Assembly (NCBI GenBank): GCA_016871535.1
Contig: VHCZ01000044.1
Span: 1-33,961 of the forward strand
Direction of reading: 5' to 3'
From: Verrucomicrobiota bacterium
Lineage (GTDB): Bacteria; Verrucomicrobiota; Verrucomicrobiia; Limisphaerales; SIBE01
Length of the DNA stretch: 33,961 nucleotides
Positions 6,206 through 32,502 of the stretch are shown one piece after another (positions within the stretch are counted from its first letter, which is position 1; each line of letters opens with the position of its first letter). A model generated the notes under the pieces. It saw only the letters and a list, made by a program, of their open reading frames with translations. It was not told where the DNA came from and made no database searches. A program made the position numbers and the translations under genes.

Positions 6206-9200
6206 ATGCAGCAACGCTTCGGCACGATTCTCTCGGTCGTTCTCGGGTTTTTCATGGTTTTCAGCGGCTGTGTCCTGGGCCTCGAAAGTCACCCTCCGCC
6301 CGAACCTGAGTCAACCACGGATTACACGGATCGCACGGATAAGGGAGCTTCTAAATCTGTGAAATCCGTGAAATCCGTGGTGCGAGAATCTGTTCGAGAG
6401 TTCAATGCGGGGAGTTTAGCAATAGGGAATTCTCCCCTCGAACCTCCCCCTCACCCTGTCCCTCTCCCCCTTGCGGCGGGAGAGGGTGTCCGCAAGACGA
6501 GTGAGGGGCAAAATCGCGCGCAGTGGGAGCAAGGCCAGAGCTTCCGAAGCAAAGCACTCGTTGTTCCCCCAAACGGCCAGGCTGGCTTCACGCTCCTGTC
6601 GTCAAACCTTACCGGCATCGCGTTCGGCAATTTCGTGCCTGAAGCCCGGCATCTCACGAATCAAATCCTTCTCAACGGCTCCGGGGTCGCCGCCGGGGAC
6701 GTCGATGGCGACGGCTGGTGCGATCTGTATTTCTGCGGATTGAACGCGCCCAATCGCCTCTACCGCAATCTGGGCCACTGGAAATTCGAGGACATCACCG
6801 AGGCCGCGGGAGTTGCTTGCACCGGATTGGATTCAACGGGCGCAACCTTCGCGGATCTGGACGGCGACGGCGATCTCGACTTGATCGTGAACTCGATCGG
6901 GCGCGGCACGCGAATATTCTTCAACGACGGCAAGGCGATTTTTGCCGAACGCACCGTGTTAAATCCCGGCAAAGGCGGAATGACCACGGCCATAGCCGAC
7001 ACCGACGGCGACGGATTTCTGGACCTGTACATCGCCAATTACCGCACCAATGCTCTCATGGACATGCCCAACGCCCGGGCCACGTTCAAAGTGATCGATG
7101 GCAGAACGGTCGTGGAGCGCGTCGATGGCCGGCTCACCACCGAACCGGAATTGACGAACCGATTTGTCGTTACCGCTTCGGGACGGATTCTGGAAATGGG
7201 CCAACCGGATGCGTTCTATCGAAATCTCAGCGGCACGAACTTCGGCGCAATTTCCTTTACTGATGGCACGTTTATGGAGGAAGACGGCCAACCGTTGAAG
7301 GAAACGCCTCGGGATTGGGGACTGGCCGCGATGTTTCGCGATCTCAACGGCGACGGCTGGCCCGACCTTTACGTCTGCAACGATTTCGATTCGCTCGACC
7401 GCGTCTGGATCAATCAGGGGAAGAATTCCCCAAAGCCTTCACACCCTGAACCCCGGAACGGCCCCCTCACCCGTCCTGCGGACACCCTCTCCCCCTCCGA
7501 GGGGGAGAGGGATGGGGTGAGGGGGCAGGTTCCTTGGGAGGGTCGGTTTCGCGCGATTCCTCGCCTGGCGCTGCGCAAGGCCAGTCTGTTTTCCATGGGC
7601 GTTGATTTTGCCGACCTCAACCGCGACGGGTTTGATGACTTTCTCGTGCTCGACATGTTGAGCCGGGATCATCGGCTGCGCATGACCCAGATGCTGGACG
7701 ACAATCCGTCCGCGCCGCGAATCGGCGAGATCGAGAACCGTCCGCAATACGGGCTGAACACCCTCTTTTTGAGCCGGGGCGACGGCACTTACGCCGAGAT
7801 TGGGCAGTTCAGCGGGCTGGAAGCTTCGGAGTGGTCCTGGACGCCGATCTTCCTCGATGTCGATCTCGACGGATGGGAGGACGTGCTGATTTCCAACGGC
7901 CAGGAACGCGCGGCGCGTGATCTCGACGTGGCGGATGAATTGAAATCCCTGCGCGCGAAACGAAGAATGTCGGACGCCGAACTCTTCCAGGCGCGCCGCA
8001 AATTCCCCCGCCTCAGCACGCCGAATCTCGCCTTCCGCAATCGCGGCGATCTGACGTTCGAAGAAACCGGCCGTGCGTGGGGCTTCGACCTCGCCGGCAT
8101 TTCGCACGGAATGGCGCTGGCGGATCTGGACAATGACGGCGACCTGGATGTTGCCGTGAATAATTTCAATGCCCTGGCCAGTGTCTATCGAAACAATTCT
8201 TCGGCGCCTCGGATCGCCGTGCGTTTGAAAGGCCGCGCGCCCAACACGCGGGGGATTGGCGCCCGGATCAAAGTGCTGGACGGCGCCGTGCCAGAGCAAT
8301 CCCAGGAAATGATCTGCGGCGGGCGTTACCTGTCTTCCGACGAACCGCTGCGGGTCTTTGCCGCCGGCTCGCTGACGAACGAACTGACGATCGAAGTGAA
8401 CTGGCGCAGCGGGCTTCGGAGTCTGGTCCGCGGAGCCAAAGCGAATCGCGTGTATGAAATCCAGGAAGCTGAGTCGGTCCCCCTCACCCGTCCTGCCGAC
8501 ACCCTCTCCCCCTCGGAGGGGGAGAGGGCAGGGGTGAGGGGGCCCGTTCGTCGGGAGGGAATGGGTGAGACGGAACGCCTGACACACAGGAGCGCCGGAG
8601 CGTCCGTGCGTCAGAGCGTTGAGCCGTCCACGAACAACCCTCGGACGCTCGGACGCTCGGACGCTCCAGCGCTCCAACGCTCTGACGCTCCCACACTCTT
8701 CGAGGAAGTGAGCCATTTGCTGAATCACACCCACAGGGATCAACCGTTCGACGATTTCAGCCGCCAGCCGTTGCTCCCGAATCGGCTCAGCCAATTGGGG
8801 CCGGGAGTCGCCTGGTTCGATATCGATGCGGATGGTTGGGACGACTTGATTGTGGGCAGTGGCAAAGGCGGGACGCTGGCGGTTTATCGCAACCAGAGCA
8901 ACGGGGGATTCTCCAAGGTCGAGGGCCCTCCAGCCCTGCCGGCCACGCGAGATCAGACAACAGTGCTGGGGTGGAACAAGGCGCCGGGACAAAGAGTGCT
9001 TCTCGCCGGATCCGCGAATTACGAGGACGGCCTTGCGATTGGCGCGTGCGTCCGGCAATTCGATCTGGCCGCCAGGCGCGCCGAGGATCTCATCGCCGGA
9101 CGCGAAGCCAGCACCGGACCGCTGGCCCTGGCGGATTACGACGGGGACGGGGATCTGGATTTGTTCGTCGGCGGGCGCGTGCTTCCCGGGAAATATCCGG

Positions 9201-10477
9201 AAGCGGCATCCTCAGCGCTCTACCGGAATGCTGGCGGGAAATTCGCGCCGGACACGGAAAACTCGAAGTTGTTGGTCGCAGTCGGGCTGGTCAGCGGCGC
9301 GGTGTTCAGCGATCTCACCGGAGACGGTTATCCGGAACTGATTCTGGCCTGCGATTGGGGGCCCATCCGGATTTTCTGGAATCAAACGGGGCGCCTGGCG
9401 CCCTGGAATTGGCCCGTGACTTTGCCCCAGGGAAATTCCACGCTTCACGCTCCACGCTCCACGCTCCACGATTTGACAGGCTGGTGGAACGGCGTCACCG
9501 CCGGCGATTTTGACGAAGACGGCAAGATGGACCTCGTCGCCTCGAATTGGGGACGCAACACGAGGTATCAGAGCCATCGCGCGCAACCTTTGCGCGTTTA
9601 CTTCGGAGACTTCGACCGCGACGGAACCGAGGACATTATCGAGGCCTACTACGAGCCGGCGCTGAAGAAGGTCGTGCCGGAACGGCAGTTCGTGGCACTC
9701 GGACGCGTCATGCCGTTTCTACGCGAGCGGTTCGCTTCGAACAAAGCCTATGCCGGCGCGGGTGTTGAGGAACTTTTGGGCGACCGACTGCCCGGCGCGA
9801 AGTTCTGGGAGGCGGTCTGGCTGGAGTCCACCGTCTTCCTGAACCGCGGCGACCGCTGGGAGGCGCGAGCTTTGCCGGTGGAAGCGCAGTTTGCGCCCGC
9901 GTTCGGCCTGGCGGTTGCCGATGGGGATGGCGACGGTCATGAAGACCTTTTCTTGAGCCAAAATCTTTTCGGCGCGCAGATCGAAACCCCGCGCTACGAC
10001 GGCGGACGCGGGCTGTGGTTGAGAGGCGACGGACGCGGCGGATTTGCGGCCCTGGCCGGGCAGGAGAGCGGCGTGATGATTTACGGCGAACAGCGCGGAT
10101 GCGCCCTCGCGGATTTTGACCGCGATGGAAGGATCGATCTCGCGGTGGCGCAGAACGGCGCCGCCACAAAACTATTCCGCAATCGCGGCGGCCGGCCGGG
10201 CTGGCGCATCCGATTGAAGGGTCCGGAGGACAATCCGGACGGCGTTGGCGCCTGCCTCCGGCTTATCACGGGAACCACCTATGGCGCGGCGCGTGAGATT
10301 CACTCCGGGAGCGGTTACTGGTCGCAGGACAGTTCCGTGCAAGTCATGGCGTCTGCGCAATCGGCGACGCGTCTGTGGATTCGTTGGCCGGGTGGGAAGG
10401 AGACGACCGTCGATCTGCCGAAAAACGCGCGGGAAGTCAGCGTTGATCTCGCGGGGCGCATCACGAACGTGCCTTGA
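6206..10477 (+). CDS. CRTAC1-like protein: FG-GAP propellers with two ASPIC/UnbV domains
   Basis: This is a large exported protein. The N-terminus has a hydrophobic stretch ending FSGC, a possible lipoprotein box. The first FG-GAP propeller starts near residue 155 (AAGDVDGDGWCDLYFC) and carries many DxDGDGxxD calcium loops. An ASPIC/UnbV domain lies at about 685-752 (GARIKVLDG, GGRYLSSDEPLRVFAAG). A second FG-GAP half covers about 855-1325, and a second ASPIC-like segment closes the protein (1337-1422: GVGACLRL, SGSGYWSQDSSVQVM, LWIRWPGG). The function of this family is unknown; vertebrate relatives are extracellular matrix proteins. Oddly, five palindromic elements sit inside the gene without breaking it (6315-6380, 6446-6508, 7462-7525, 8479-8542, 8584-8696), plus a short CGCTCCA repeat at 9436-9472. 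All lie in linkers or loops. A GGAGAGA at 6184-6190 is rather far from the ATG. Confidence 0.88.
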   Translation: MQQRFGTILSVVLGFFMVFSGCVLGLESHPPPEPESTTDYTDRTDKGASKSVKSVKSVVRESVREFNAGSLAIGNSPLEPPPHPVPLPLAAGEGVRKTSEGQNRAQWEQGQSFRSKALVVPPNGQAGFTLLSSNLTGIAFGNFVPEARHLTNQILLNGSGVAAGDVDGDGWCDLYFCGLNAPNRLYRNLGHWKFEDITEAAGVACTGLDSTGATFADLDGDGDLDLIVNSIGRGTRIFFNDGKAIFAERTVLNPGKGGMTTAIADTDGDGFLDLYIANYRTNALMDMPNARATFKVIDGRTVVERVDGRLTTEPELTNRFVVTASGRILEMGQPDAFYRNLSGTNFGAISFTDGTFMEEDGQPLKETPRDWGLAAMFRDLNGDGWPDLYVCNDFDSLDRVWINQGKNSPKPSHPEPRNGPLTRPADTLSPSEGERDGVRGQVPWEGRFRAIPRLALRKASLFSMGVDFADLNRDGFDDFLVLDMLSRDHRLRMTQMLDDNPSAPRIGEIENRPQYGLNTLFLSRGDGTYAEIGQFSGLEASEWSWTPIFLDVDLDGWEDVLISNGQERAARDLDVADELKSLRAKRRMSDAELFQARRKFPRLSTPNLAFRNRGDLTFEETGRAWGFDLAGISHGMALADLDNDGDLDVAVNNFNALASVYRNNSSAPRIAVRLKGRAPNTRGIGARIKVLDGAVPEQSQEMICGGRYLSSDEPLRVFAAGSLTNELTIEVNWRSGLRSLVRGAKANRVYEIQEAESVPLTRPADTLSPSEGERAGVRGPVRREGMGETERLTHRSAGASVRQSVEPSTNNPRTLGRSDAPALQRSDAPTLFEEVSHLLNHTHRDQPFDDFSRQPLLPNRLSQLGPGVAWFDIDADGWDDLIVGSGKGGTLAVYRNQSNGGFSKVEGPPALPATRDQTTVLGWNKAPGQRVLLAGSANYEDGLAIGACVRQFDLAARRAEDLIAGREASTGPLALADYDGDGDLDLFVGGRVLPGKYPEAASSALYRNAGGKFAPDTENSKLLVAVGLVSGAVFSDLTGDGYPELILACDWGPIRIFWNQTGRLAPWNWPVTLPQGNSTLHAPRSTLHDLTGWWNGVTAGDFDEDGKMDLVASNWGRNTRYQSHRAQPLRVYFGDFDRDGTEDIIEAYYEPALKKVVPERQFVALGRVMPFLRERFASNKAYAGAGVEELLGDRLPGAKFWEAVWLESTVFLNRGDRWEARALPVEAQFAPAFGLAVADGDGDGHEDLFLSQNLFGAQIETPRYDGGRGLWLRGDGRGGFAALAGQESGVMIYGEQRGCALADFDRDGRIDLAVAQNGAATKLFRNRGGRPGWRIRLKGPEDNPDGVGACLRLITGTTYGAAREIHSGSGYWSQDSSVQVMASAQSATRLWIRWPGGKETTVDLPKNAREVSVDLAGRITNVP
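6315..6380. repeat. Family C palindrome, copy 2, inside a gene
   Basis: A 66-bp copy (22 codons) just after the signal sequence of the CRTAC1-like gene. It encodes STTDYTDRTD followed by SVKSVKSVV, the same frame as copy 1 gives in the FG-GAP/cytochrome gene. Because the length is a multiple of three, it is frame-neutral. Confidence 0.88.
6446..6508. repeat. Family D palindrome (CCCTCACCC type), copy 1, inside a gene
   Basis: Arms CCCCCTCACCCTGTCCCTCTCC and GGGAGAGGG..GAGTGAGGGG. It is read through in the CRTAC1-like gene as PHPVPLPLAAGEG, a different frame from copies 2 and 3. The length is 63 bp. Confidence 0.85.
7462..7525. repeat. Family D palindrome, copy 2, inside a gene
   Basis: Arms CCCCCTCACCC and GGGGTGAGGGGG around CTCTCCCCCTCCGAGGGGGAGAG. 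It is read through as LTRPADTLSPSEGERDGVRG, inside an FG-GAP loop between WINQGK and RFRAI. Confidence 0.88.
8479..8542. repeat. Family D palindrome, copy 3, inside a gene
   Basis: It is 64 bp, the same as copy 2, and nearly identical to it. It is read in the same frame as LTRPADTLSPSEGERAGVRG. It sits in the linker after the first ASPIC/UnbV domain. Confidence 0.88.
8584..8696. repeat. Family E inverted repeat (GGACGCTC type), inside a gene
   Basis: A perfect 14-bp inverted pair GCGTCAGAGCGTTG / CAACGCTCTGACGC lies in a longer imperfect palindrome. The right side holds tandem CGGACGCT words. It is translated in the CRTAC1-like gene as a low-complexity stretch (GRSDAPALQRSDAPTL). It follows family D copy 3 by about 40 bp. 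Confidence 0.8.
9436..9472. repeat. CGCTCCA short tandem repeat, inside a gene
   Basis: Tandem CACGCTCCA words are translated as STLHAPRSTLHD, immediately before the conserved block TGWWNGVTAGDFDEDG of the CRTAC1-like protein. It looks like another linker insertion, shorter than the palindromic families and without a clear second arm. Confidence 0.65.
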
Positions 10478-19698: not shown

Positions 19699-19931
19699 TG
19701 GCTCATAAGAACGCACCACGATTCTTTGATTGCGCACTGGGACCATGAACGAAAGGAAGCGAGCTTCGGCGCGCCAGCGTTTCGGAATGCGGAAGTCCTC
19801 GGCCGCTTTTGGACTTGCCCGACGAATCGAAAGCGCCCGGGGACTGGCGCAGTCCAAAACCTGGCGGAACCACGACCGTTCATGGGTAGCTTCCTTGGTC
19901 TCGGGACTATGCCCACCGCCCATGAACCGAA

Positions 19932-20022
19932 CGCTGCGCGGGCCGCAGCCTTCAGGCTGCTTCCGGGCGCACTTTGGAGTTGAGTGTTGAAGCGGCCTAA
20001 AGGCCACGGTCCGAACAGACGG
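19932..20022 (+). repeat. Family A two-hairpin element, copy 4
   Basis: Both hairpins are intact (GCAGCCTTCAGGCTGC, GGCCTAAAGGCC), with slightly altered outer arms and a length of 91 bp. It lies between the pseudopilin gene and the CotH pseudogene. The preceding GTTCATGGGTAGCTTCCTTGG wording also flanks the copies at the left end, so the mobile unit is longer than the cloverleaf core. Confidence 0.85.
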
Positions 20023-20038
20023 TTCATGGTCAGGTTGC

Positions 20039-20899: not shown

Positions 20900-20969
20900 C
20901 GTCCCCCGCTCCCGTCCTGCGGACACCCTCTCGCCCTCCGAGGGGGAGAGGGAACGGGAGAGGGGGACG
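20900..20969. repeat. Family D element, copy 5
   Basis: Arms CGTCCCCCGCTCCCGT and ACGGGAGAGGGGGACG surround the centre GACACCCTCTCGCCCTCCGAGG, closely matching the two copies in the CRTAC1-like gene. It lies between the pseudopilin and hydrolase genes. Confidence 0.82.
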
Positions 20970-21003
20970 TTCAGGAGGACAAGGGGCGAAGTTCTGCTTG
21001 GGA

Positions 21004-22355: not shown

Positions 22356-22395
22356 GGGTGGGGCGATGCTGCCGCGCCGCCGCATCGACAGAAAA
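22356..22395. repeat. Family J element, copy 2, truncated by family A
   Basis: GGGTGGGGCGATGCTGCCGC followed by GCCGCCGCATCGACAGAAAACC matches the left half of family J copy 1. The right arm is missing, and family A copy 5 begins exactly there. This looks like one element inserted into or recombined with another. Confidence 0.65.
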
Positions 22396-22484
22396 CCGTG
22401 CGGACTGCAGCCTTTACGCGGCTTCGGCGCACTCTCTGCAGGCGAGCGTTGAACCGGCCTAAAGGCCACGGTCCGAAGAAACGG
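22396..22484 (+). repeat. Family A two-hairpin element, copy 5
   Basis: It is 89 bp long. The outer arms CCGTGCGGACTG and CGGTCCGAAGAAACGG and the GGCCTAAAGGCC hairpin are kept; the first hairpin is degenerate (GCAGCCTTTACGCGGC). It sits in the 5' region of the hydrolase gene. Confidence 0.8.
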
Positions 22485-22571
22485 TTCCTGGGAAGTTTCC
22501 CAACGCGCGCCGTCACCTTTGCTTCGTGTCGTGAATTCATTTCTTGTTTCGCTCTTGCGCTCAACGCCGGG

Positions 22572-24951: not shown

Positions 24952-25281
24952 CCGATGAAAGGCGTTCAAACGCGGCGAAAAAATGCACGCTGGCTTCCGG
25001 AAAATCCAGTCGGAAGAACCCGCTTCGGTGATCTGCTCCGCGGCCTCCGCGGAAAAGGACGATTCAGCCGGTGCAGCGCAGGTGTTTAACCCCGGCGCAG
25101 GTAGGTGTGTGCGTCCTCCCGGGGGACCGCACGCGCCCCGCGTGCTGAGGTGGGCGCCCTCGCCGACCTCAGTCTTCCGTCAGAAGAAGCGATTGCTTGA
25201 TATGATGGCTTCTCCGACGACCGACCGGCGAGGGCGCCGGTCGGGACGCGCGAGGGCGCGTGTGCTCCCCAACTCGAACAC
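24952..25281. other. Intergenic region holding family G copy 2
   Basis: There is no gene here. About 135 bp of unremarkable sequence (25, 0xx range) upstream of the NHL gene should contain its promoter, but I cannot point to -10/-35 boxes. The remainder is the 149-bp element at 25122-25270. Confidence 0.5.
25122..25270 (-). repeat. Family G 149-bp palindromic element, copy 2
   Basis: Its reverse complement starts GGGGAGCACACGCGCCCTCG and ends GCGTGCGGTCCCC, matching copy 1 at 2730-2878 end to end with the same total length. The nested palindrome GACCGGCGCCCTCGCCGGTC is kept. It directly follows the stop of the second pseudopilin gene. Confidence 0.82.
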
Positions 25282-26362: not shown

Positions 26363-28567
26363 TCATTTCCGCACGCGATAGAATCTTCCCGCGCCGGTCA
26401 AGGTCACGGTGTGCGGACTCGACGCCGCCGAGACCGCAGTCCACGGACCGGTGATGGAATCGGACGATTCGAGGACACCGCCTTCGGTCCAACTCAGTGT
26501 GAGCGAGTTCCCGGACCGCGCCGCGGAGATTTTCGGCGTTGCAGGTGCGCCGGCAGGAAATGCACCCGCACCCACTTTGATGTTCGGCAGTCCCTCGGCC
26601 TTGATCAAGATGTAATCCACTTCATACTCCGAAAGCCCGCCGATGCTGGAGCCGGCAATTCCTGCGAAACCGATCCGGTCTGCTCGCGTCCAGCGCATTG
26701 GCCAATCGGACGGTTCAGCAACAGTTCCGTCCGCGAGCCAGACTTTGCCAAAGATATTCGGACCGTCGGTCACGATGCTGCCCGTCTGGCGCAAACGCAG
26801 CCAGTACCAGGTTTCATTTTCCCAATCGATGTCGAGTCCGGGCGGTCCCCAGGCGCGCCGGTCGTCCAGCAATTTGAACTGGCGGCCTGAAACGCTATCC
26901 TGGTCGTTGTCGCGGAAATGCAAATTGATGCCCTGGCTGGAGTCCGGATCGACTCCGACCGCAATGCCGCACCGCGGCGCGTCGCCGGCGCCGAACGCCG
27001 TGATCCGAATTCGAGCCAGCACTTCCTGCGCGTCTTCGCTGTAGCCCGGCGCCTGGTAGAGCAAATGCGTATCCGGACCTTCGCCGACGACCGTGACCCG
27101 AAGCACGCCATTGGCCGGTTCGTAACTGTCTTTCTCCAGAGGCACCGGCACCCAGTTCGGGTCGCGGGTCGCGCTGAGGAAATCATCCTGAAACCCTTTG
27201 ACGGTCTGTCCGAAATCGGCGGGCACCGCCACATCGAAACTGATCGGGACCTGTGAATTCGGAAGAATGGTGTTGCCAACCACGTCTTGAATTCCTTTGA
27301 CGGTGAGCGTGTAGCTCGTCCCCGGCTTTAGGGCGCCGGTTTTCAAAACGACATTCGTGCCGACGCCGGAGAGTTTGGCCGCGCTGACGGAAAGCCCCGT
27401 GACCGCGTAGTTCGCGACATTGGTTGCCGTGCTGGCCGCGACGGGCTCGGAAAACATGACGGTGACGCTGTCGAAAGTCCGGTCCACGCTCGCGACAGCT
27501 CGGACCACGGTCGGCGGGGTCACATCCACCGTCAAGATCGCCTCGGCGCTGGTGACGGTTGCGCCGCCCATCGAAAGGGCGCAACGGAATTTCGCGCCGT
27601 GATCCGTTCGAGTCACCGGAGTGGTTGTGTAGCTCTTCGCCGTGGCGCCGGCGATGGCGACAAAGTTGGTGCTCCCCGCCGCCGCTCTTTGCCATTGGTA
27701 AGCCGGCGGGGCCGAACTCGCGACTTCGAGTGTGAATGTGGCGGTTTGGCCGATGTCGGCGCTCGCGCTTTTCGGTTGTTGCCGGATGCTCAAGAACAAT
27801 GGCTCCGGGAATGCGCTGGGCGAGACTTTGATGCTCGGAAGGCCTTCCGCTTTGATGAGAATGTAGTCCACTTCGTATTCCGAAAGCCCGCCGATGCTCG
27901 AACCGACGATTCCCGCGAACCCCGTTCGTCCGCTGCGCCGCCAGTTCATTTGCCACTCGCCCGGTTCAGGAACGCTGCCGTCCGCCAGCCAGACTTTGGC
28001 GTTGATGTTGTTGGTGGGAGCGGTGCCAGGGCCGGTCTGGCGCAGACGCAACCAATACCAGGCCGCGTCCTCCCATTTGAGATCCAGCCCGCGTGGCCCC
28101 CACGCGCGCCGATCATCCAGCAACTTGAATTGGCGCCCCGACAGCCCATCCTGATTGTGGTCGCGGAAGTGCAGGTTGATTCCCTGACTGGTATCCCCGC
28201 TCACCGCGACCGCGATGCCGCACCGCGGCGCGTCTCCGGTGCCGAACGCCGTGACCCGAATCCGCGCCAGCACTTCGTGTGCGGTGTCGTCGTAGCCCGG
28301 CGCCTGGTAGAGCAAGTGTGTGTCGAACGCCCCTTCGCCAACCACCGTGACGACGAGCACGCCGTTGAGTTGATCGTAGTTGTCCTTCTCCGGCGGCACC
28401 GGCACCCAGTTCGGATCGCGCCTCGCGCCGCTGAAATCATCCTGGAAGCCGTTGACGGTTTGGCCGACGTCCGCCGGCGTGAACTTCGCCTGGGCGTGAA
28501 GCGTCGCTGGAACTTGAATCATCATGAAGCATGCAACGAGGGAAACTCCGACAGATGTTTTGCGCAT
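26363..28567 (-). CDS. Secreted protein with duplicated lectin-like domain, Ig and Big domains
   Basis: The signal peptide MRKTSVGVSLVACFMMIQVP leads to a ~225-residue beta-rich domain (GFQDDFSGARRDPNWVPVPP ... GLSEYEVDYILIKAEGLP), comparable to concanavalin-like or DUF1080-type sugar-binding folds. Then come an Ig-like domain (about 265-345; QTATFTLEVASSAPPAYQWQ), a bacterial Ig-like domain (about 350-445; VTVMFSEPVAAST, GTSYTLTVKGIQD), and a second copy of the first domain (about 450-675) with very high identity. It ends in the small beta-sandwich found elsewhere in the window (LTLSWTEGGVLESSDSITGP, FYRVRK). No catalytic residues are evident; an extracellular binding role is inferred. An AAGAAGG six bases ahead favours the ATG at 28567 over the one at 28573. 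Confidence 0.85.
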   Translation of the reverse strand: MRKTSVGVSLVACFMMIQVPATLHAQAKFTPADVGQTVNGFQDDFSGARRDPNWVPVPPEKDNYDQLNGVLVVTVVGEGAFDTHLLYQAPGYDDTAHEVLARIRVTAFGTGDAPRCGIAVAVSGDTSQGINLHFRDHNQDGLSGRQFKLLDDRRAWGPRGLDLKWEDAAWYWLRLRQTGPGTAPTNNINAKVWLADGSVPEPGEWQMNWRRSGRTGFAGIVGSSIGGLSEYEVDYILIKAEGLPSIKVSPSAFPEPLFLSIRQQPKSASADIGQTATFTLEVASSAPPAYQWQRAAAGSTNFVAIAGATAKSYTTTPVTRTDHGAKFRCALSMGGATVTSAEAILTVDVTPPTVVRAVASVDRTFDSVTVMFSEPVAASTATNVANYAVTGLSVSAAKLSGVGTNVVLKTGALKPGTSYTLTVKGIQDVVGNTILPNSQVPISFDVAVPADFGQTVKGFQDDFLSATRDPNWVPVPLEKDSYEPANGVLRVTVVGEGPDTHLLYQAPGYSEDAQEVLARIRITAFGAGDAPRCGIAVGVDPDSSQGINLHFRDNDQDSVSGRQFKLLDDRRAWGPPGLDIDWENETWYWLRLRQTGSIVTDGPNIFGKVWLADGTVAEPSDWPMRWTRADRIGFAGIAGSSIGGLSEYEVDYILIKAEGLPNIKVGAGAFPAGAPATPKISAARSGNSLTLSWTEGGVLESSDSITGPWTAVSAASSPHTVTLTGAGRFYRVRK

Positions 28568-28573
28568 AATCAT

Positions 28574-28678: not shown

Positions 28679-30178
28679 TCACACGATCTGTTCGATGACT
28701 TTTCCCTGGACCAGGGTGAGGCGCTCATTGCGGCCCAGGTGCGGAAAATTCAACGCGTCCTGGTCCAAACCCAGTTGGTGCAAGATCGTCGTGTGGATGT
28801 CGCGGAAGTGAACCGGATCCTTCACCGCGCGCAAGCCGATGTCGTCCGTCGCGCCGACGACCTGGCCGCCTTTGCTGCCGCCGCCCGCCATCCACATGCT
28901 GAAACCCAAATTATGATGATCGCGGCCTTTGCCGGTCTGCGCTTCGGGTGAGCGCCCAAATTCGCCGCCCCAGAGCACGAGCGTGCTGTCGAACAGCCCG
29001 CGGCGTTTTAAGTCCTTCAGCAGTCCGGAAATCGGCTTGTCCGTCTTAGACGCCATGCGGAGGTGATTTTCCTCGATGTTGTCGTGCGCGTCCCACTGCT
29101 TGTTCCCTGGCCCACCGCCGGAAACGACGCAAATGAACCGCACGCCCTTTTCAACGAGACGCCGGGCCAGCAAACAACGGCGGCCGTAATCGTGCGTCGG
29201 CGCGGTGCCGACGCCGTAGAGGTCGAGCGTCTCCTGAGGTTCCTCCGAAAGATCGAAGACCGCCGGGGCTTCCGATTGCATCTTGAACGCGAGGTCGTAC
29301 GCGCTGATCCGCGCGGAAAACTCGTCATCGTCCGGAGCCAATGTCGCTTCATTGAGATGGCGGATCAGATCAACGGTCTTGCGCCGTTGCTCGGAGGAGA
29401 CGCCAGTTGGCAAGTCGAGGCTCAGCACCGGCTTGGTGCCCGAACGCAGCATGGTCGGTTGATAGACCGCCGGCAAAAACCCGTGCATGTACATCGGCTG
29501 GCCCGCTTCCAGCGCGCCGTCCGGGTCCGGCATCACCACGTAGGCCGGCAGCGATTGACTTTCCGAGCCAAGTCCATAGGCGATCCAGGAACCCATGCTC
29601 GGAAACCCCGGCACGATGCGACCGCTGAACAGTTCGTACTGCGCCGCCGAGTGCACGACCATGTCCCCGTAACACGAGCGGATCACCGCGATGTCGTCGA
29701 TGCATTGGGCCGTATGCGGAAACAGGTCGGAAACCTCAATGCCGCTCTGGCCGTATTTCTTGAAGGAGCGCTTCGTGCCCAGAAGCTTGGCGTTCCTTTC
29801 GATGAATTGATATTTCGCCTCGCCAAATTCCTTCGGGCGCGGCTGGCCGTGAAGCTGATTGAGCAGCGGCTTGGGATCGAAGGTGTCGATGTGGCTCGGC
29901 CCGCCCGCCGCAAACAAGAAGATGACCGCCTTCGCTTTCGGCGCGAAGTGTGAAGGTTTCGGCGCGAGCGGATTCAATATCGCGGCGCGCGCTCGCTCCT
30001 GCTGGAGAATCGAAGCGAACGCCAGCGAACCAAAGCCGCAGAACGCGTCGCGAATGAACTCGCGTCGCGTCCGGGTAAGACGAACGTGGCCGACGTTATT
30101 CTCCGGAGGCATCATGATTTCTGTTCCCGTCTCGCGTGTGTGCAACCCAGCGGTGGGATGTTGCTGTTCAGTTGACAT
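28679..30178 (-). CDS. DUF1501 protein (sulfatase-like fold), Tat-type signal
   Basis: This 499-residue protein belongs to the DUF1501 family, abundant in Planctomycetes and Verrucomicrobia and related in fold to alkaline phosphatase/sulfatase enzymes. The N-terminus has a twin-arginine signal (RTRREFIRDAFCGFGSLAFA), implying export in folded form. Conserved blocks include AGGPSHIDTFDPKP, DLFPHTAQCIDDIAVIRSCY, FPSMGSWIAYGLGSES, ICVVSGGGPGNKQWDAHDNI, LVLWGGEFGRSPEAQ and GRDHHNLGFSMWMAGGGSKG; their Asp/His residues are candidate metal ligands. Its ATG overlaps the end of the DUF1549/DUF1553 gene by 11 bp, so the two are translationally coupled and co-transcribed. The pair is thought to act in periplasmic polysaccharide (possibly sulfated) degradation, but the exact reaction is not established. 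Confidence 0.92.
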   Translation of the reverse strand: MSTEQQHPTAGLHTRETGTEIMMPPENNVGHVRLTRTRREFIRDAFCGFGSLAFASILQQERARAAILNPLAPKPSHFAPKAKAVIFLFAAGGPSHIDTFDPKPLLNQLHGQPRPKEFGEAKYQFIERNAKLLGTKRSFKKYGQSGIEVSDLFPHTAQCIDDIAVIRSCYGDMVVHSAAQYELFSGRIVPGFPSMGSWIAYGLGSESQSLPAYVVMPDPDGALEAGQPMYMHGFLPAVYQPTMLRSGTKPVLSLDLPTGVSSEQRRKTVDLIRHLNEATLAPDDDEFSARISAYDLAFKMQSEAPAVFDLSEEPQETLDLYGVGTAPTHDYGRRCLLARRLVEKGVRFICVVSGGGPGNKQWDAHDNIEENHLRMASKTDKPISGLLKDLKRRGLFDSTLVLWGGEFGRSPEAQTGKGRDHHNLGFSMWMAGGGSKGGQVVGATDDIGLRAVKDPVHFRDIHTTILHQLGLDQDALNFPHLGRNERLTLVQGKVIEQIV

Positions 30179-32411
30179 ATAGAAATGCGTTCAGATTAAA
30201 CATCGCCAGCGCGAATTCCTTCAACGGCTGGCTTTGGAGGAATTGGAGCGCGAGACGCTTTTCATTCTTGGTGGGCGGACGGCTCGCAGCCAGCCAATAC
30301 GCGCGATCGATCTGAGCGTTGGCGTCAGCGCCCGCTTCGGCGACCAGCCGTTGCGCGAACGCTTCCGCCAGCGTGTTTGAAATGCGCCCGTTCAAAAGCT
30401 CCAAGGCTTGCGGCGCGTGCGTGCTCGTCTCCCGCCGGCCGCAACTTGTCTGAAGCGCCGGTTGATCGAACACTTCCATGAACGGCAGCCGCAAGTTGCG
30501 TTTCGCAATCAGGTAAACCGAGCGGCAGTGATGATCCTGCTCGTGCGGCGTGACCGTCCATTGCGAAGGCTTGTAAAGCTGACCGATCAACTCGGCATCG
30601 ACCGGCAGCAGCACGCTCGGCCCGCCCGCTTTTCGATTCAGCTTTCCCGAAACCGCCAGCATCGCGTCGCGAATCCCTTCCGCGTCCAGGCGCCGGCGAT
30701 TGAACCGCCACAGCAACCGGTTTTCCGGATCGCTCGCCGCCGCCTCTTCACCACGACGGGTAAGGACGGATTCCACTCCGTCCCTGACTAAGCCCCGACG
30801 GGGCGACGCAAGGTTGATCCCTGAAGCCCCTTCGGAGCTAAGATCAGGGACGTGGTGGAACGCGTCCTTACCCGGCTCAAGGCTGCTGGGAACAGTCCCC
30901 GACGCTTGCCGATAAACACTGCTCAACAAGATCATCCGGTGAATCGGCTTGAGCCGCCAGCCGTGCTCGATGATCCGGAGCGCCAGATAATCGAGCAATT
31001 CCGGATGGCTCGGCCGGTCGCCGTTCTCGCCAAAGTCATTCGCCGTCTTCACCAGCCCTTGCCCGAAATGAAATTGCCAGACCCGATTCGCCAGCACGCG
31101 CGCTGTCAACGGGTTTTTCGGATCGGTGATCCAACGCGCCAGGGCCGTCTTGGGGTTCGGTGTGTCCGGCGGAAGCTCCGTCGTTCCTTCCTGCCAGAGA
31201 ATATTCGGGCCTTTCATGCCCACGCGCTCGCCTTTGCTCTCCCAAGCGCCGCGCCGCAAAACGTGAATCGCCGTGCGATTGGACTCGACGTTCTGGATGC
31301 TGGCGATGGTCGCGGGCGGGCGCGGCATGTTCTCTTCCAGCTCGAGAATCTTCTGGTTCAGCCGCGCCTTCTCTTCGTCCTCCGCGTTTCGCAAAGCGCG
31401 CTTGAGGCGGGCGACCTCCTGATTGATCGACTTGACCTTGTTCTTCCAATCCTCCTGTTCCTGCGGGCTGCTCAACAGAATGTTCCGTTCGTCCGTGGCC
31501 GCGAGGAACGCCTGCATCTGATAGTAATCCTTCTGGCGGATCGGATCGAACTTGTGATCGTGGCAACGCGCGCAGCCAATCGTCAGGCCCAGAAAAGCCG
31601 CGCCGATGATGTCCGTGCGGTCGGTCAATACTTCGTTGCGGCTGCTGGCCACGTCTTGATTGCCCGCGTTGCGCCGGACCGGACCCAGCCGATGAAAGCC
31701 GGCGGCAACTTGCATTTCAGGGTCGTCCGGCGCCATCTCGTCCCCCGCCAGTTGTTCGAGAACGAACCGATCGAATGGCTTGTCCCGATTGAACGACTCG
31801 ATGACGTAGTCCCGGTACCGCCACGCATCGGGAATGTCGCGATCGTACTCGAAACCTTCCGTTTCTGCGAAACGCACCACGTCCAGCCAATGCTGGCCCC
31901 AGCGCTCGCCGTAGTGCGGGCTGTTCAACAAACGATCCACAAGTCTTTCGTAGGCGTCGGGCGACGAAGCGTTGAGGAACTGCTGCACTTCCTCAGGAGC
32001 GGGCGGCAAACCGATGACATCGAAGTAAACCCGTCGAATGAGATCGAGCTTGGGCGCGGGCGATGCCGGAGCGAAGCCGCGTGATTCCAGCCCGGCCAGG
32101 ATGAACTGATCGATTGAGGTCCTAGGCCAGGCCCGGTCTTTGACCGAAGGAGGGGAAACACGTTTGAGCGGTTGAAACGACCAAAAATCTTTCCCGGATT
32201 CGCGGTTGAGCACCTCGGACATCGGCGCCGCCGGACCCGAAGCCTCTCGTTTCGCGCTTTGACTCACGTCATCGGCCGGAGAGTCGAATGCCACCCAACC
32301 CCAAAAGCTGAAGATCACGATCCGGACCCAGGCGCGGGCCGATTCAGAAATCTCGAAGCCCTTTCTCCTTCGCCGAAAGCTCGGTTCGCAGTCTTTTTGG
32401 CTGATCTTCAT
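30168..32411 (-). CDS. DUF1549/DUF1553 protein (PSCyt2-PSD1 type), with embedded palindrome
   Basis: A membrane-anchored or exported protein: a basic N-terminus, then a hydrophobic segment WVRIVIFSFWGWVAF at about 28-42. DUF1549 follows from about 95 (SIDQFILAGLESRGFAPASP, RRVYFDVIGLPPAPEEV, HYGERWGQHWLDVVRFAETE) and includes the haem-like motif CARCH at 280-284 within IGCARCHDHKFDP. DUF1553 covers about 400-720 (NPLTARVLANRVWQFHFGQG, DPENRLLWRFNRRRLDAEGI, FDQPALQTSCGRR). The PSCyt1 cytochrome domain that often precedes these domains is absent. A coiled coil (about 310-350) sits between the two halves. Element H (30757-30874) is read through in frame between YRQASGTVPSSLEPG and AAASDPENRLLW. 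I chose ATG 32411 rather than TTG 32417. It is translationally coupled to the DUF1501 gene. Confidence 0.9.
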   Translation of the reverse strand: MKISQKDCEPSFRRRRKGFEISESARAWVRIVIFSFWGWVAFDSPADDVSQSAKREASGPAAPMSEVLNRESGKDFWSFQPLKRVSPPSVKDRAWPRTSIDQFILAGLESRGFAPASPAPKLDLIRRVYFDVIGLPPAPEEVQQFLNASSPDAYERLVDRLLNSPHYGERWGQHWLDVVRFAETEGFEYDRDIPDAWRYRDYVIESFNRDKPFDRFVLEQLAGDEMAPDDPEMQVAAGFHRLGPVRRNAGNQDVASSRNEVLTDRTDIIGAAFLGLTIGCARCHDHKFDPIRQKDYYQMQAFLAATDERNILLSSPQEQEDWKNKVKSINQEVARLKRALRNAEDEEKARLNQKILELEENMPRPPATIASIQNVESNRTAIHVLRRGAWESKGERVGMKGPNILWQEGTTELPPDTPNPKTALARWITDPKNPLTARVLANRVWQFHFGQGLVKTANDFGENGDRPSHPELLDYLALRIIEHGWRLKPIHRMILLSSVYRQASGTVPSSLEPGKDAFHHVPDLSSEGASGINLASPRRGLVRDGVESVLTRRGEEAAASDPENRLLWRFNRRRLDAEGIRDAMLAVSGKLNRKAGGPSVLLPVDAELIGQLYKPSQWTVTPHEQDHHCRSVYLIAKRNLRLPFMEVFDQPALQTSCGRRETSTHAPQALELLNGRISNTLAEAFAQRLVAEAGADANAQIDRAYWLAASRPPTKNEKRLALQFLQSQPLKEFALAMFNLNAFLYVN
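30757..30874. repeat. Palindromic element H inside the DUF1553 gene
   Basis: CGGGTAAGGACGGATTCCAC at one end is mirrored by GTGGTGGAACGCGTCCTTACCCG at the other, with an inner GCCCCGACGGGGC hairpin. It is 118 bp long. Its translation (KDAFHHVPDLSSEGASGINL, then ASPRRGLVRDGVESVLTRRG) has no counterpart in the conserved part of the family and sits in a loop. Confidence 0.85.
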
Positions 32412-32502
32412 GACCAATGAAGCTCGCTCGATGAACGCATTCTTACCATAGGGTGATTCCCTTTGGCGAGCGCGTTTCGGGCTCTTCCTGGCTCGGATTC
32501 AA

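Follow-up and report, generated by a model that had tools for sequence, protein, structure and literature searches.

In-frame palindromic repeats in a CRTAC1-like gene and in conserved enzyme genes of a Verrucomicrobiota bacterium, probably carried into the proteins

Introduction

Do selfish repeats really create protein segments? This old question is raised again by a single gene in the genome of a Verrucomicrobiota bacterium, which holds several palindromic repeats and is open to translation across all of them. The best-known cases of palindromes lying in frame within genes come from reduced intracellular genomes. The gene studied here lies in a window (the whole stretch of DNA that was analysed, 33,961 nt) from one fragmented, high-GC MAG of 6.7 Mb in 460 contigs. 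We compared the gene with its homologues and followed its repeats through the source genome and its relatives.

Results

A large secreted-protein gene carries five folding palindromes

The host gene (6206-10477, + strand) is predicted to encode an FG-GAP/ASPIC (CRTAC1-like) secreted protein. We observed no internal stop across its 1423 codons, and Pfam matched FG-GAP_3 in seven stretches and UnbV_ASPIC in two, all of them intact, which bears out the claim of an earlier note on this DNA that the gene is open throughout. Its relatives are large, secreted-protein-like and present in many genomes, with 10-15 strong matches (paralogues or homologues) in each related genome; the source genome has 15 strong matches. 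The protein was aligned with up to 28 paralogues and homologues from the same genome, genus, family and order, and, in a further set, with sequences from a Gemmatimonadaceae MAG, Bacteroidota and others. Five elements, termed C2, D1, D2, D3 and E, each fold better than all of 200 shuffles.

C2 (6311-6400, +; fold z -7.1) belongs to the ATCCGTG-AATCCGTG family and is read as TDYTDRTDKGASKSVKSVKSVV behind the signal peptide. D1 (6446-6508, -; fold z -3.3), a D (type B) palindrome in reverse orientation, is read as PPHPVPLPLAAGEGVRKTSEG. Both follow the signal peptide (..VLGLE) and precede the start of the mature domain (..W..SFRSKAL), and in this interval C2 is absent from the aligned homologues (up to 28). 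Their location near the N terminus makes a start-site error possible; the hydrophobic, signal-like peptide predicted upstream argues against it.

D2 is a clean block of 39 codons (7424-7540, +; fold z -4.7) in a propeller loop, read as NSPKPSHPEPRNGPLTRPADTLSPSEGERDGVRGQVPWE and flanked by WINQGK and GRFRAI. The palindrome itself spans 7462-7525, with a hairpin stability of -71 kcal/mol, and the 5' part of the block is similar to the flanks of other D copies, which suggests that the element takes up all 117 nt. The block is missing from every homologue aligned across the site, other phyla included. This is the outcome that the earlier note had proposed to look for, namely an insertion of a multiple of three that homologues lack. 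In a structural model of the first propeller and ASPIC domain (mean pLDDT 73, from a shallow alignment of 7 sequences), the D2 insert sits between two strands with a pLDDT of ~30 and no secondary structure. Such a low-confidence, unstructured loop agrees with the earlier suggestion that the insertion sites tolerate extra residues.

D3 (8479-8542, +; fold z -3.1), also a D (type B) palindrome, is read as VPLTRPADTLSPSEGERAGVRGP and lies with E in the linker behind the first ASPIC domain, a linker whose length varies in all homologues. The D3 segment is missing from all homologues examined, including those from Gemmatimonadaceae and Bacteroidota. D1, D2 and D3 form a single family, with D1 inverted relative to the other two, and a fourth copy in the window is intergenic (20903-20983, +). 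D1, D3 and C2 lack exact empty sites because the comparison set consists of paralogues and distant homologues (at most 59% identity) rather than orthologues.

Other repeats and RNA matches were also noted in the window. Rfam gave no match within the host gene and a single one in the window, a group II intron domain near the contig end (33837-33911, -; RF00029, 55 bits). A tandem ~292-nt unit with a 131-nt core in three copies occupies 47-760 and has two further dispersed copies (19903-20033 and 22365-22495), and a Big_5 gene (26363-28573, -) contains an internal duplication at 26574-28478 with 1251-1254 nt spacing.

E and the CGCTCCA tandem resemble older variable loops

E (8590-8705, +; fold z -4.9) is an octamer-like (CGCTCCA/CGCTCGG) palindromic repeat found in 6 places in the analysed DNA. 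The CGCTCCA element (9438-9474, +), read as STLHAPRSTLH ahead of TGWWNGV, is a short tandem of 7-nt units rather than a palindrome and shows no folding (z +0.6). With 13+3 matches, the E/CGCTCCA octamer is rare in the source genome. At the E site, paralogues C46, C73 and C95 and L022 have tandem-like ..APTLF.. peptides (xAPTLF); at the CGCTCCA site, paralogues C95, C106, C123, C176 and C190 and homologues from other genomes have STLN..STLN or TLHAPRSTLH before TGWW. Because paralogues carry related tandem repeats at both sites, these differ from the D and C2 sites, and judged from the alignments E and CGCTCCA are best read as older, variable, repeat-prone loops of the protein family, not clearly new insertions.

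The earlier claim of five palindromic insertions therefore holds in part: five palindromes fold and D2 and D3 are insertions, but E and CGCTCCA are not clearly gene-specific ones. The note had also held that homologues in unrelated genomes with the same peptides at the same sites would point to ancestral sequence. By this yardstick E and CGCTCCA do seem to have been inherited within the paralogue family, even though both peptides are missing from more distant homologues. In a separate observation, the ASPIC linkers of paralogues C106, C123, C176 and C190 (L126, L128, L129 and L127) have a common repeat-like peptide, PPFQAAGSGGFPAARVSGQESPENRQAGKPA, likely another in-frame repeat family.

D copies keep the reading frame across the genome

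A 27-nt D core has 46 matches in the source genome (up to 3 mismatches) versus 0 for a reversed-pattern control, and the C2 motif has 94+91 (185) versus 0. In a class-wide scan the D core was detected in 11 of 141 genomes; the family is thus patchy but not private to the source genome. When oriented, D copies have a three-stem fold in common, made up of an outer stem, a side hairpin (GTCCTNCGGAC) and a main hairpin of 12 bp. Their ends, the outer stem CCCCCTC(A/T)CCC / GGG(T/A)GAGGGGG with flanking arms GAACG / CGTTC, are terminal inverted repeats of the kind that characterises MITEs.

We then scored the coding signal on both flanks of 43 D copies. Statistics were drawn from ~1.8-2.1 Mb of the source genome, a sample that holds nearly all D copies and is biased towards them, and genes were called with a custom hexamer-based caller. 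In 19 of the 43 copies both flanks are coding in one frame, which stays open through the element; only 2 have same-strand flanks in shifted frames, and both are outside gene calls and adjoin gene ends. For the same-strand coding-flanked copies, 19 against 2 gives p = 5e-11 relative to an expectation of 2/9 (one third of insertions keeping the frame, times two thirds of frames open), and p = 0.013 if the element length is in every case divisible by three. The earlier note had argued from the host gene for selection on an open frame; support for such selection comes from this genome-wide count rather than from the host gene alone. In-frame retention reveals which insertions survived and neither their improbability nor their usefulness.

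Random positions in 1.54 Mb of unbiased contigs were in frame by the same test in 39% of cases (p = 0.53 against 19/43), and D copies thus show no depletion from genes. C2 copies are depleted (3 of 31 scorable copies in frame, p = 4e-4), and type A, a paired-hairpin family related to D, is intermediate (10/35). The 21 D copies with strong coding on both sides fall into orientation/phase classes F2 (9), R2 (4), R0 (4), F0 (3) and F1 (1). Between 38 and 43 of the 43 copies are stop-free in each of the four common classes, and 19-24 in the other two. With four of six reading frames stop-free, either orientation is readable and D is well suited to in-frame insertion; since four classes are used, D encodes no single preferred peptide and any stop-free reading is accepted.

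A de novo scan of the same 1.54 Mb gave 527 dispersed-repeat intervals, of which 68 fall inside genes with coding on both sides (46 of 1091 genes). The resulting ~4% of genes is an upper estimate because some intervals may be conserved protein motifs and not mobile repeats. A PSCyt2/PSD1 gene of 1042 aa (L064:1464-4592) contains five such intervals, more than the 6206-10477 gene in that scan.

Conserved enzymes are among the hosts of D

By Pfam, D lies within or between the domains of DNA polymerase I, PurL, UbiD, an AcrB-type pump, a UvrD-like helicase, a DegT aminotransferase, an FAD-oxidase/Fe-S protein, a kinase-WD40 protein, PSD1-type proteins and others. The polA copy adds 105 nt, placed between the 3'-5' exonuclease domain and the polymerase domain, and the site is empty in the congeners G001 and G002. 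The peptide predicted to span element and host is LIGEGILRPTSPIEPLNGPLSPSEGER. We observed a dN/dS of 0.14 for the insert-carrying polA against G001 (0.09 for the polymerase domain), and the gene is thus under strong constraint. The polA linker has further repeats, among them a C2-like peptide, TRDYTDKTASPSAKSVV, that occurs in the source genome only. GGAGA stands on both sides of the polA insert and a GGAGA-like sequence also ends other D copies, so that a duplication reads the same as an element end. For the Gate-domain host of D, no homologue was found at the cut-off used, and that gene gave no second empty site.

Different repeats occupy the same loop in related genomes

Three species of one genus each have a different repeat in the same loop of UbiD (L206, L209 and G000:C37, the last at L146:8791-10419): D in the source genome, an SNQYSVISNQ-type repeat in G002 and a GGGGAGCGCATGCGCC...-type palindrome in G001. 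A CCTCGCGTG...CGGTCGG palindrome, possibly of the family in the G001 loop, has inverted copies in the window at 2744-2778 and 25221-25255. At the PurL site where the source genome has D, G009 of the same order (L181) has an unrelated in-frame inverted repeat, AGTGGGACAGGCG...CGCCTGTCCCACT. No simple empty sites were found for purL and ubiD among relatives because these loops vary in all of them.

A third case lies in the window itself. The gene at 30168-32417 (-) has a PSD1 match in Pfam that is broken at residue 514, and an inverted-repeat palindrome of a family unrelated to D (TAAGGACGGATTCCACTCCGTCC...; 30757-30874, -) lies in frame inside this domain. The family occurs in ~54 places in the analysed DNA. 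This palindrome is missing from most PSD1 paralogues, two of which have other repeat-like sequence at the site.

Search for a mobilising enzyme

The source genome has 13 matches to Y1_Tnp (PF01797). No D, C2 or E motif was found near the five best-scoring of these genes, and a RAYT/REPtron link was rejected on this basis. Two Y1-type transposase genes with equal scores, L190 and L191 (G000:C235), lie ~2 kb apart on a small contig, a possible recent duplication. No clear target-site duplication was found at D insertions. Only 12 of 43 D copies have GTAG/CTAC, which can also form within the GTCCTACGGAC side hairpin; CGTC/GACG, found in 42 of 43, comes largely from the consensus CCCGTCC rather than from an end tag, and the D unit exceeds 40 bp.

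Discussion

The analysis showed that D elements are inserted, keep the frame and recur in many conserved genes, that congeners have empty sites, and that a polA with an insert is under purifying selection. The explanation that very probably accounts for this is that C2 and D1-D3 are dispersed palindromes that landed in the gene, are translated and persist at permissive loops, where purifying selection has maintained the frame, with E and CGCTCCA as older repeat-prone loops. Short, non-coding, non-autonomous palindromic families (MITE- or REP-like) would have spread through the genome, presumably by transposition, and inserted widely. Copies causing a frameshift or a stop would be lost, and those retained would have a net length that is a multiple of three, a stop-free frame through the hairpin and a site in an exposed loop, in a linker or behind a signal peptide, where they may be nearly neutral. 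The gene would still be translated, and each repeat would become a disordered peptide of 20-40 residues.

Could the repeats instead be ancestral protein sequence that merely looks palindromic? The CGCTCCA peptide and parts of E do occur at the same sites in paralogues and in homologues from other families, and for the CGCTCCA tandem, and partly for E, ancestry remains the better reading. For D1-D3 the comparisons refute it: the D2 and D3 segments are missing from every homologue examined, and unrelated genes contain this DNA in either orientation and in four phases, as do stretches outside genes. As an account of the whole set, ancestry is therefore very unlikely. We give equally little credence to the idea that the host gene is a decaying, unexpressed paralogue with neutral insertions and a frame open by luck. 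Any single copy in a family with 15 strong matches in the genome could be dispensable, but 1423 codons are stop-free with FG-GAP and ASPIC matches intact, D is in frame in single-copy housekeeping genes including a polA under purifying selection, and frame-broken D copies are almost absent. An assembly artefact is barely conceivable: a short-read MAG of 460 contigs with abundant repeats (527 intervals in 1.54 Mb) might join unrelated contigs, but in ~20 genes the flanks are the same protein in the same frame, and alignments resume exactly past the insert.

Removal of the segments after transcription, by splicing or translational bypass, would give a protein without them. The very stable hairpins (D2 in particular) and the group II intron domain elsewhere in the window might be taken to favour this; however, it would make frame and stops irrelevant, yet stop-poor phases and in-frame lengths dominate, and we regard it as extremely improbable. 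Loops may also gain repeats by recombination or template switching that swaps repeats at repeat-seeded loops, not by fresh transposition. Unrelated repeats in one loop of UbiD (three congeners), PurL (two genomes) and PSD1 (three paralogues) are what such swapping would produce, as is the lack of a transposase linked to the D family among the five best of 13 Y1_Tnp matches. The polA and D2 sites, however, present a filled site against a clean empty one with no earlier repeat, and permissive loops alone could explain recurrent insertions; we consider swapping unlikely. More speculatively, the permissive loops of conserved enzymes might be recurrent acceptor sites in which unrelated palindromes replace one another between sister species through repeat exchange or loop-targeted insertion, rather than through random insertion and selection. 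We hold this doubtful, if conceivable, for UbiD in the three congeners, PurL and PSD1; if true, the loop peptides of housekeeping proteins would be steadily rewritten.

The reading of D as inserted, translated palindromes has parallels in known systems. As reviewed in PMC10969869, the Rickettsia palindromic elements (RPE; Ogata 2000, 2002) are palindromes of ~100-150 bp that sit in frame in various unrelated protein genes, at places that tolerate them, with several families per genome and presumed translation. D resembles these elements in being palindromic and repeated, with copies in frame in unrelated genes and presumed translation. Empty sites in relatives' orthologues, a further mark of RPE as a kind, were found for D at polA in G001 and G002, and for D2 by way of paralogues and distant homologues. 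D appears to differ in sequence, and it belongs to a large high-GC genome, whereas RPE are found in a reduced intracellular one; it also uses both orientations and four phases, with an intragenic share no lower than that of random positions. Intragenic GTAG/CGTC REPs, many of them in Opitutus terrae (Verrucomicrobia), are palindromes inside ORFs that hit some genes twice; their hosts include DNA repair and polymerase genes, and linker sites have been proposed as tolerant (PMC3733652). D is longer, with a ~64-nt nested palindrome in an insertion of 105-117 nt, and has a three-stem fold. It is not a GTAG REP because it has neither a GTAG tag at the end nor a RAYT link (at the five best of 13 Y1_Tnp matches). 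A CGTC REP has CGTC at one end, an 8-9-bp stem and 20-40 bp in total; CGTC/GACG is present in nearly all D copies, and the D unit is longer. MITEs and the enterobacterial RU-ERIC elements are likewise small, non-autonomous and palindromic, are found intragenically and can carry open frames (PMC2759123, PMC2229807); D shares the small palindromic form but shows no clear target-site duplication. SPSEGER-type peptide strings had no match in the literature searched. The phenomenon is of a known kind, that of Rickettsia RPE and the intragenic REPs of Opitutus terrae. New are the non-depletion of D from genes, the turnover of unrelated repeats at one loop and probably the D family itself.

In conclusion, this bacterium probably makes proteins that contain pieces of repeat DNA, as judged from repeats that sit in protein loops without breaking the frame. 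Its 6.7-Mb genome has in-frame repeats in up to ~4% of genes in the sampled contigs, polA included. Since close relatives differ in whether a site is filled or empty and in which repeat a loop holds, proteomics and comparison within the genus can here test directly whether protein segments do arise from selfish repeats.
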